From Erysipelotrichaceae bacterium (GTDB taxonomy: Bacteria; Bacillota_I; Bacilli_A; ML615J-28; CAG-313), in the NCBI GenBank assembly GCA_015059015.1, contig SVBG01000009.1, positions 1 through 64,000 of the forward strand: a stretch of 64,000 bases of DNA, read 5' to 3'. Shown here in pieces: positions 11,352 through 51,220 of this stretch. How positions within the stretch are numbered: position 1 is the first letter of the stretch; each line of letters starts with the position of its first letter. The translations under genes were made by a program, and so were the position numbers. The notes under the pieces are model-generated. The model saw only the letters and a list, made by a program, of their open reading frames with translations, was not told the origin of the DNA and did no database searches.

Positions 11352-11378
11352 CCCCATATTAGATATGGGGCTTTTTTT
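11352..11378 (+). terminator. Terminator after anti-sigma gene
   Basis: CCCCATAT (11352-11359) pairs with ATATGGGG (11363-11370), 3-nt loop, then C and seven T. Confidence 0.9.
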
Positions 11379-11419
11379 ATTTATAAGGAAAGTTCATATT
11401 TTTGATAAATATTGAAAAT

Positions 11420-11460
11420 ATTGAAAAAAATTAAAAAAATATTGAAAAAAATTAAAAAAA
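11420..11460. repeat. Two tandem 21-nt A-rich repeats
   Basis: ATTGAAAAAAATTAAAAAAAT is present at 11420-11440 and repeated at 11441-11460 with the last base missing. A partial ATTGAAAAT copy precedes it. It lies just upstream of the structured RNA promoter. Confidence 0.7.
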
Positions 11461-11487
11461 CCTATAGATTTTTAATAAATAATTTGG

Positions 11488-11493
11488 TATAAT
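11488..11493 (+). promoter_or_regulatory. Extended -10 of structured RNA A
   Basis: TGGTATAAT with the hexamer at 11488-11493. No good -35 is visible 17 bp upstream. The predicted start is the G at 11500, seven nt after the -10, the same offset as in the sister RNA at 50.7 kb. Confidence 0.65.
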
Positions 11494-11499
11494 AATATT

Positions 11500-11690
11500 G
11501 TAAAAAGTCAAGGTTTAAAATTTATTATCTAGTCTTTTGGGATAATATTTATATTGATGATTTACTAGCCCTAAGAAACAAGGTAAGATTATGTTTGCGC
11601 AAAAGACTATACGCGGAGTTTATTTTATAAAAGATATTTCTATTCTTATTTTATAGGAGTAGAATCTTTTGTAGAGTAAGCTCCCTTTTT
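11500..11690 (+). ncRNA. Structured RNA A, ~190 nt, family unassigned
   Basis: Non-coding in all frames, with an extended -10 in front and a long terminator hairpin at the end. Hairpin P1 pairs 11523-11529 with 11541-11547. Its loop (11530-11539, TAGTCTTTTG) is fully complementary over 10 nt to 11600-11609, predicting a long-range pseudoknot or an alternative helix. TACGCGG follows directly (11610-11616). The 3' part (11615-11684) folds into a stem of about 21 bp with an inner 7-bp hairpin, then a T tract. The RNA at 50715-50908 has the same length, the same order of elements and compensatory changes in the helices. The RhuM/Fic gene begins 85 bp after the terminator with no promoter seen between, so read-through control is possible. 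Confidence 0.72.
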
Positions 11691-11775: not shown

Positions 11776-12720
11776 GTGAATAATAATTTTGAAATTAAAG
11801 TATTTAATAATGGAAATGTAAATGTTGTAGTATGTTTTGATAAAGATAAAAACACTGTTTGGTTAACTCAAAAACAAATGGCTGAATTATTTGGTGTGTC
11901 AGTTGATAATATTAGTTTACATATTAAGAATATTTTTGTAGATTGTGAACTTGATAATTCAGTTGTCGAGGAATCCTCGGTAACTGCATCTGATGGAAAA
12001 AAATATAAAACAAAAATATATAACTTAGATATGATTATTTCTGTTGGATATAGAGTAAAATCTAAAGTTGGTATAGTTTTTAGAAAATGGGTTACAGGTA
12101 TTTTAAATAAATATCTGGTTGAAGGATATGCTGTTAATGAAAAAAGATTAGAGTTTTTAGAAAAACAAATTAATTTAATTTCTATTGCTTCTAGATTAGA
12201 TGATAATGTTATTACTGATGAGGGAAATAAAATATTACAAACAATTATTGATTATAATAAAGCTTTATCATTATTAGATGATTATGATCATCAATGTCTT
12301 AAAAGGCCAACTGGAACATTAGGATGTTATAAAATAACTTATGAAGAATGTAGAAAAATTATTGATGCAATGAAATTTGATTCTAAAATATTTGGTGTAG
12401 AAAAAGATGGAAGCTTTAACTCAAGTATAAATGCGATTTATCAATCTGCATTTGGTGAAGATGTATATAAGTCAACTGAAGAAAAAGGAGCTAATTTATT
12501 ATATTTTATTGTTAAGAATCATTCATTTGTTGATGGAAATAAAAGAATTGCTGCAAGTATATTTTTATATTTTTTAGATAGAAACAATATTTTATATGTT
12601 AATGGAATAAAAAGATTATCAGATTCAGCACTTGTTGCGTTAACTATTTTGATTGCGGAAAGTAAACCAGAAGAAAAAGAAATTATTGTTGATTTAGTTA
12701 TGAATTTTTTAACAATGTAA
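11776..12720 (+). CDS. RhuM family protein with C-terminal Fic/Doc domain
   Basis: 314 residues. The N-terminal part (about 20-125: WLTQKQMAELFGVSVDNIS, then YRVKSKVGIVFRKW) is typical of the RhuM family, a DNA-binding-like module named from a Salmonella pathogenicity island gene whose role is unclear. The C-terminal half ends in a Fic motif HSFVDGNKR at 249-257, related to death-on-curing proteins. RhuM-Fic fusions are common on accessory elements and can behave like toxin or defence genes, but no antitoxin is adjacent. The start is GTG with GAAAGGAAGG upstream. It lies just downstream of structured RNA A. Confidence 0.85.
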   Translation: MNNNFEIKVFNNGNVNVVVCFDKDKNTVWLTQKQMAELFGVSVDNISLHIKNIFVDCELDNSVVEESSVTASDGKKYKTKIYNLDMIISVGYRVKSKVGIVFRKWVTGILNKYLVEGYAVNEKRLEFLEKQINLISIASRLDDNVITDEGNKILQTIIDYNKALSLLDDYDHQCLKRPTGTLGCYKITYEECRKIIDAMKFDSKIFGVEKDGSFNSSINAIYQSAFGEDVYKSTEEKGANLLYFIVKNHSFVDGNKRIAASIFLYFLDRNNILYVNGIKRLSDSALVALTILIAESKPEEKEIIVDLVMNFLTM

Positions 12721-50678: not shown

Positions 50679-50708
50679 TTGACTTTTATAAAATAAAAAT
50701 GGTATAAT
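50679..50708 (+). promoter_or_regulatory. Promoter of structured RNA B
   Basis: TTGACT (50679-50684), 18-bp spacer, TATAAT (50703-50708) with extended -10 TGGTATAAT. The predicted start is G50715. Confidence 0.8.
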
Positions 50709-50714
50709 TAAATT

Positions 50715-50908
50715 GTAAGAAATTCAAGTTTTAAAGGTTATTATTTACTCTAAAGGAGTAATAATCATATTGAAATTTTTGCTACTCCTAGGTATTTAGA
50801 TAACATTATATTGCACTTTAGAGGTTACGCGGGTATTGACATTATAAAAGAATTATCTATTTCTAAATTTAGAAATAGAATCTTTTATATTGTTGATACC
50901 CCTTTTTT
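50715..50908 (+). ncRNA. Structured RNA B, ~190 nt, sister of RNA A
   Basis: Non-coding in all frames, with its own promoter and terminator. Hairpin P1 pairs 50740-50748 with 50758-50765 (one bulged T). Its loop (TCTAAAG, 50749-50755) is complementary to CTTTAGA at 50816-50822, and TTACGCGG follows. Between them, ATATTGA, CTAC-CCTA and ATTAT-TTGC are shared with RNA A. The 3' part (50831-50901) is a long hairpin with a perfect inner stem, closing in CCCC and six T. RNA A at 11500-11690 shares length, order and the pairing scheme but not the paired bases, so the helices are supported by covariation. Not recognised as 6S, SRP, tmRNA, RNase P or T-box. Confidence 0.74.
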
Positions 50909-51193
50909 GTTTTTTGACTTTAAGAATTTATAAATTTTGATAGAATTGTTAAAGTTTTTTATTGAAAAAACACAATAATTATAAAAAATTAATCAATGTA
51001 TTAAATTCTTTTATGAGTAGATTGTTTGTGCCAAAGAGTAGCCAATAAAGTTAGAAAAAATAATTATATTAATAATTATTATAAAATATGGAAATATTAA
51101 TTAAATTAAAATAGTATAATTTTACCTTGATTTTATAAGTCAAGGTAATTTTCTTGTTTATAGTGTGCTTTTTATATTAAAATTTGGTATAAT
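50909..51193. other. Intergenic stretch between RNA B and the ABC-F gene
   Basis: About 285 bp of AT-rich sequence. It holds a weak hairpin (51123-51130 with 51140-51147, then ATTTTC) that may act as a terminator or attenuator, and an extended -10 TGGTATAAT (hexamer about 51187-51192) for the ABC-F gene. Nothing else is recognised. Confidence 0.5.
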
Positions 51194-51220
51194 ATGTGGA
51201 GAGAAAAAGTGAGGTATTTT

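Follow-up and report, generated by a model that had tools for sequence, protein, structure and literature searches.

How toxic bacterial defence genes are kept silent until infection is, to our knowledge, largely open, and in most of the cases of control known to us one regulator serves one system. The nearest described arrangement to the RNA discussed here is RCd22-abiF of C. difficile (abiF motif, RF03085). Most RCd22-abiF transcripts stop before the toxin gene and those that read through are the toxin mRNA, which its authors call riboswitch-like premature termination; the RNA also binds its protein (PMC12373285). Both arrangements consist of a sigma-A promoter, a structured RNA, an intrinsic terminator and then an abortive-infection or defence-type gene. 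But the present RNA is not a member of that family: it has neither the abiF motif nor an Abi_2 gene, one core stands before five unrelated protein families, and the RNA does not track the protein. As that paper summarises, a short, prematurely terminated transcript was reported for abiD1 of Lactococcus lactis (PMC12373285); it too is the structured 5' UTR of a defence gene, although a single gene is concerned there. Type III toxin-antitoxin systems (ToxIN, CptIN, TenpIN) likewise place an RNA pseudoknot and a terminator upstream of a toxin-like gene, and the order promoter, RNA, terminator, protein gene is the same here as in these and in abiF. However, there are no tandem repeats and no ToxN-type protein, the protein genes are exchangeable, and where those systems have a single dedicated toxin family (ToxN-like or Abi_2), the five unrelated ones stand here. 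Terminator-type riboswitches and attenuators of Bacillota share the compact covarying pseudoknotted core, the intrinsic terminator and the ribosome-binding site, and here too a conserved structured leader with an intrinsic terminator lies directly upstream of an open reading frame; the differences are that no known class matches, that the genes are defence and transposon genes and not metabolic ones, and that the RNA is mobile and multicopy. Lastly, some copies lie inside an IS605/IS1341-type TnpB element, but upstream and with their own terminator; the place of omega RNAs is the right end. We file the RNA as a new family of a known kind, the attenuation leader, unusual in serving many unrelated defence genes.

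RNA B, the type copy, is an RNA of about 190 nt at 50715–50908 on the plus strand of the window, by which we mean the whole stretch of 64,000 nucleotides that was analysed. Its promoter (50679–50708, plus strand) consists of TTGACT, 18 nt and TATAAT preceded by TG, with 11 of 12 consensus matches. The core (50715–50833, plus strand), delimited by covariance-model matches and pair counts and with a predicted start at 50715, holds on that strand the helices P0 (50715–50727/50770–50782), P1 (50736–50746/50756–50766), P2 (50787–50790/50797–50800) and P3 (50801–50804/50824–50827). According to pair counts, the P1 loop CTCTAAAG (50748–50755) is the 5' strand of a pseudoknot whose 3' strand is CTTTAGAG (50816–50823). 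A long intrinsic terminator (50831–50908, plus strand; stem 50831–50901, T-run 50903–50908; −32.8 kcal/mol) closes the unit. RNA A spans 11500–11690, also on the plus strand, with a core (covariance-model match, pair counts) at 11500–11617, pseudoknot strands at 11530–11539 (TAGTCTTTTG) and 11600–11609 (CAAAAGACTA), and the CGCGG block with the terminator at 11612–11690 (CGCGG 11612–11616, stem 11615–11684, T-run 11686–11690; −35.3 kcal/mol). Its −10 box TATAAT, preceded by TGG, lies at 11488–11493, the alignment position equivalent to that of RNA B, and its −35 region at about 11463–11468. Both RNAs begin with GTAA, 7 nt past the −10 box. The sequence-only reading had given the two the same start offset, a sigma-A-type promoter, conserved blocks, a P1 hairpin and a long 3' hairpin with T-run, and all of these are present in both. 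That it assigned neither to a known family agrees with our searches: Rfam 15 has 0 matches at gathering score in the window, and nothing credible appears at E ≤ 10 for RNA A or RNA B. A conserved coding leader was dropped as an explanation, as the TTG-started frame MKFLLLLGI of RNA B is absent from RNA A.

Is the fold real? Folding of RNA A and of RNA B beats 200 shuffles (z −5.7 and −4.8), and the model comprises P0 (12 bp), P1 (11), the pseudoknot (8), P2 (4), P3 (4) and P4 (5). Across 29 distinct aligned copies, 93.6% of cells are paired against 82.9% after shuffling, and at most 46% when slid by 1–3 columns. Two-sided changes affect 24 pairs, with 14.5 ± 1.5 expected and 0 of 500 shuffles reaching that number, and 25 compensatory branch events fall on the tree, compared with a null mean of 3.1 and a maximum of 10 in 1000. 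Structured paralogous RNAs with compensatory change, as first proposed, are thus borne out. The alignment was fitted to a model holding P0–P3 without the pseudoknot, so fitting cannot have biased the counts for the latter; this helix is 97.8% paired, shows two-sided change in five of its eight pairs and accounts for 5 of the tree events. The pairing of the loop with the distal strand is indeed kept between RNA A (TAGTCTTTTG with CAAAAGACTA) and RNA B (CTCTAAAG with CTTTAGAG), and the bases do compensate, but this swap, which had been offered as direct covariation evidence, is by itself essentially one block change on one branch.

The description of RNA B as a second copy was right about its homology with RNA A but an undercount. 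The genome of the window (2.0 Mb, 14 contigs, 98% complete) holds 11 copies, and in the alignment the promoter is kept in all of them. Eight are of B type, at 87–100% identity to RNA B, two are of A type (RNA A and C3_208) and the eleventh, C6_28, differs in its 3' part. RNA A matches the B-type paralogues at about 70% over 215–259 nt, with E down to 4e-21. As a side observation, C6_28 (L017, G000:C6:28300-28495) keeps the core, has A-U in place of G-C in P4, carries another 3' end and has no associated gene. A covariance model built on the own-genome copies found further copies in relatives from ruminant-gut Bacilli, bringing the full-length total to 30. Within the same order there are six copies in G003, seven in G004, four in G007, three in G036 and one each in G023 and G014, while the match in G010 is weak and partial; the RNA is missing from most of the remaining genomes in the order, so that presence is patchy even among close relatives. 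Outside the order, no match turned up in 395 genomes of the class with only 9 candidates scored for each, a weak negative. In 84,980 genomes a pattern scan picked up 17 matches, all in metagenome-assembled genomes of Bacilli/Bacillota, mostly with names that refer to samples of ruminant cecum, rectum or rumen. Viral contigs gave no match to the exact motif, which does not support a phage origin.

What stands behind these RNAs? Downstream DNA is readable for 28 copies, and 25 of these have directly behind them, on the same strand, a gene from one of five unrelated families: RhuM (8 copies, some RhuM-Fic), the DUF1016/YhcG nuclease (5), an SLFN_AlbA_2 ATPase with HATPase_c_4 (4), AbiEi-AbiEii (4) and TnpB (4, of which one is a pseudogene and one is seen only at its start). 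The other three comprise one copy before a two-gene pair and the gene-less RNA B and C6_28. By sequence assignment, PADLOC places RhuM and DUF1016 in models for phage-defence candidates and AbiE in a defence system. In about half of the copies the start codon lies 22–40 nt past the T-run, often with a ribosome-binding site. Other genes lie 63–284 nt away from the terminator and the AbiE genes have a promoter-like site of their own, so read-through is not needed by all of them. Distant genes often have a ribosome-binding site and a very short open reading frame right behind the terminator, as if an earlier gene had been replaced. Behind RNA A, the RhuM-Fic gene (11776–12720, plus strand; Pfam PF13310 and PF02661, PADLOC PDC-S23/PDC-S05) starts 85 nt past the T-run, with an SD-ATG-TGA mini-ORF in between. 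Behind RNA B, a gap (50909–51193, plus strand) leads to the next gene, an ABC-F-like ATPase at 51194, and tblastn detects in it no remnant of RhuM, DUF1016, AlbA_2, AbiE or TnpB. RNA B is a gene-less copy and probably a decayed one, a relic. The same genomes also contain many RhuM, AlbA_2 and AbiE genes without any such leader, and a literature search for leader or terminator control of RhuM, DUF1016 or TnpB returned nothing direct.

A partner RNA should track its protein family in sequence, and this RNA does not. RNAs preceding the same gene family do not exceed the expected likeness (0.718, permutation p = 0.58). RNA A, before RhuM, is 94% identical to C3_208, before DUF1016, whereas the window's genome has two DUF1016 genes whose RNAs share 68% identity. 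Leaders are exchanged as well: the AlbA_2 protein behind the RNA in G007, whose frame is broken by one stop, has 82% identity over 448 aa to an AlbA_2 of the window's genome; the leader ahead of this homologue is unrelated and has a terminator of its own. Further leader types, again with a terminator just before the start, precede other RhuM and DUF1016 genes in the order. A different RNA in the equivalent position points to a common job, the control of transcription into the gene.

Since the RNA usually lies just ahead of a defence-type or transposon gene, it is probably an interchangeable on/off leader and not a free-standing 6S-like RNA. With moderate confidence, we read it from these sequence comparisons as a leader that controls defence and mobile genes by transcription attenuation, can be exchanged between them and is carried in part by a TnpB element. 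Most transcripts would stop at the terminator and yield a short RNA, and the downstream gene would be made only from read-through. The signal might be a ligand, a phage factor or the state of RNA polymerase or ribosome. The module would travel in two ways, in part inside the TnpB (IS605-like) element and in part as a unit of RNA and gene, and the gene behind it would be swapped. If attenuation is true, the leader would point the way to defence genes and give direct access to the signal by which they are released. A bolder proposal, to which we lend tentative credence, is that the RNA is a common mobile switch that senses infection or damage for unrelated immune genes and TnpB and that can be exchanged with other leader classes. 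A single RNA fold before five unrelated defence and mobile families, whose homologous proteins swap this leader for other terminator-bearing ones, is what gives the family its interest.

How could such a leader switch? Every intact copy has a sigma-A-type promoter of its own and, at its end, a long intrinsic terminator whose stem starts, in 28 of 28, at base 2 or 4 of CGCGG. Because the stem starts inside this block, a candidate helix P4 (TTGCG with CGCGG) and the full terminator would exclude each other by 2–4 nt. More tentatively than for the steps above, CGCGG may thus pair either with TTGCG, as P4 with the pseudoknot strand in its loop, or within the terminator base, and a stable core would weaken the terminator. 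The overlap of P4 with the terminator base recurs in 28 of 28 copies; the helix is paired in 97% of cells and is nearly invariant, and no covariation event on the tree supports it. In RNA B the candidate P4 (50811–50832, plus strand) joins TTGCA (50811–50815), where most copies have TTGCG, to CGCGG (50828–50832), so one pair is A·C, and its 3' strand overlaps the terminator base. The helix is mismatched in RNA B, which has no gene, in G004_C20, with a truncated RhuM, and in C3_362, with a broken tnpB, but it is also off by one pair in G004_C12b, whose RhuM is intact. The coincidence of P4 mismatch with a missing or damaged gene is suggestive only.

Could the RNA instead be a structural or selfish part of an IS605/TnpB-like element made up of left end, promoter, RNA, tnpB and right end, with the other genes hitch-hiking or landing behind it and no host regulation? 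We think this unlikely, albeit with real evidence in its favour. Some copies lie inside an element with a full TnpB (NCBIfam guided_TnpB), and three TnpB copies share one common element, from TTATTCATAAGGAAAGTTC to AATCATTTTGTTCT, at different sites. The left ends of the TnpB elements always lie just past the T-run of a host terminator. Their left stretch recurs ahead of RNA A (RhuM), where it reads TTATTTATAAGGAAAGTTCATATTTTTGATAAATATTGA (11377–11425, plus strand) past the terminator of the host gene, and ahead of G007_C37 (AlbA_2). Presence and absence between close genomes, together with the multicopy, patchy distribution, fit a mainly selfish element, as does the greater likeness of RNAs within a genome (0.795) than between genomes (0.71). 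Comparison of sites tells of the same mobility: an RNA+AbiE unit stands at birA in the window's genome and between pcp and groES in G004; the former has no unit between pcp and groES, and the birA site of G004 holds RNA+RhuM. RNA–gene units therefore come and go and their genes are exchanged, partly within the TnpB element, although exact insertion boundaries at the pcp–groES site cannot be placed in the AT-rich flanks. Against a mere element part stand several facts. Most RhuM, DUF1016, AlbA_2 and AbiE copies lack the left stretch, and a TnpB right end was sought behind the non-TnpB genes and not found. Co-orientation and the 22–40 nt to the start codon recur in many independent copies, and other leader classes occupy the same position before homologous proteins. 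In a separate observation on the element itself, the RNA-carrying TnpB elements lie directly past a host intrinsic terminator of the form TTTTTTATT[CT]ATAAGGAAAGTTCAT (L024, L025, L020, L070-L073, L069; window 11377-11425), as if they inserted at terminators.

An RNA antitoxin or partner, which would bind and restrain the protein made by read-through as in type III systems or abiF, would explain the order of promoter, structured RNA, terminator and toxin-like gene, which is that of RCd22-abiF (PMC12373285). Yet one RNA is common to five unrelated protein families, its sequence is independent of the gene family, another leader precedes a closely similar AlbA_2 protein, and Rfam gives no abiF or type III match. 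As RNA identity does not track the gene and leaders swap, RNA–protein pairing is rejected as the main reading, and we regard it as improbable.

We give still less credit to a trans-acting RNA, 6S-like or another small RNA, that is independent of its neighbours. The sequence-only reading had described two stand-alone paralogous RNAs recalling 6S RNAs. An own promoter and terminator and the two copies without an associated gene agree with this, but 25 of 28 copies are gene-linked, there are 11 copies with patchy presence in close relatives, and the type copy, RNA B, is one of the two gene-less ones, so that comparison falls. No 6S model matches either RNA even at E ≤ 10, and the long rod with a central bubble mimicking an open promoter is not what the supported structure looks like; that the fold differs from 6S had been anticipated correctly, and P0/P1 with the loop–distal pseudoknot, P2, P3 and the terminator bear this out.

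HEARO RNAs are found upstream of iscB. A guide RNA for TnpB (omega RNA or HEARO-like), for which one could cite the four copies upstream of tnpB, can hardly be what this is: the genes behind 21 copies use no guide RNA, Rfam has no match, the anatomy is wrong, and promoter and terminator fix both RNA ends inside the element, so no flanking DNA would be transcribed as guide.

Several minor observations concern neighbouring genes and leaders. The two-gene pair directly behind the RNA in G036_C114 (L075:4101-5896) encodes proteins of 178 and 420 aa with no Pfam, PADLOC or NCBIfam match and is a candidate for a new defence system. A second leader class of about 105 nt (L224, G000:C3:200823-200927; L227, G000:C7:273107; L225, G003:C18:33421-33519; L226, G004:C8:84013-84117) precedes an AlbA_2 gene, a DUF1016 gene and a 167-aa open reading frame of unknown function. 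Its 5' AAACAAAC is complementary to GTTTGTT, which sits in the loop of a conserved AGTCTTATTCATAC terminator. A third type, ahead of DUF1016 or RhuM genes (L145, L148, L125, L154, L161, L112), has a short reading frame ending near the terminator, about 25 nt before the start codon, and a CAACTTAATA block common to several; the arrangement is suggestive of ribosome-mediated attenuation. Finally, the DUF1016 gene L132 (G000:C4:6491) and a different TnpB (L192/L189, G000:C8:14186 and G003:C23:15673) have another left-end-like stretch in common, AAAAGNGCAATTTTAAA..TTTTTTTTAATTATAT, which is a second hint of TnpB and DUF1016 genes exchanging places in one element.
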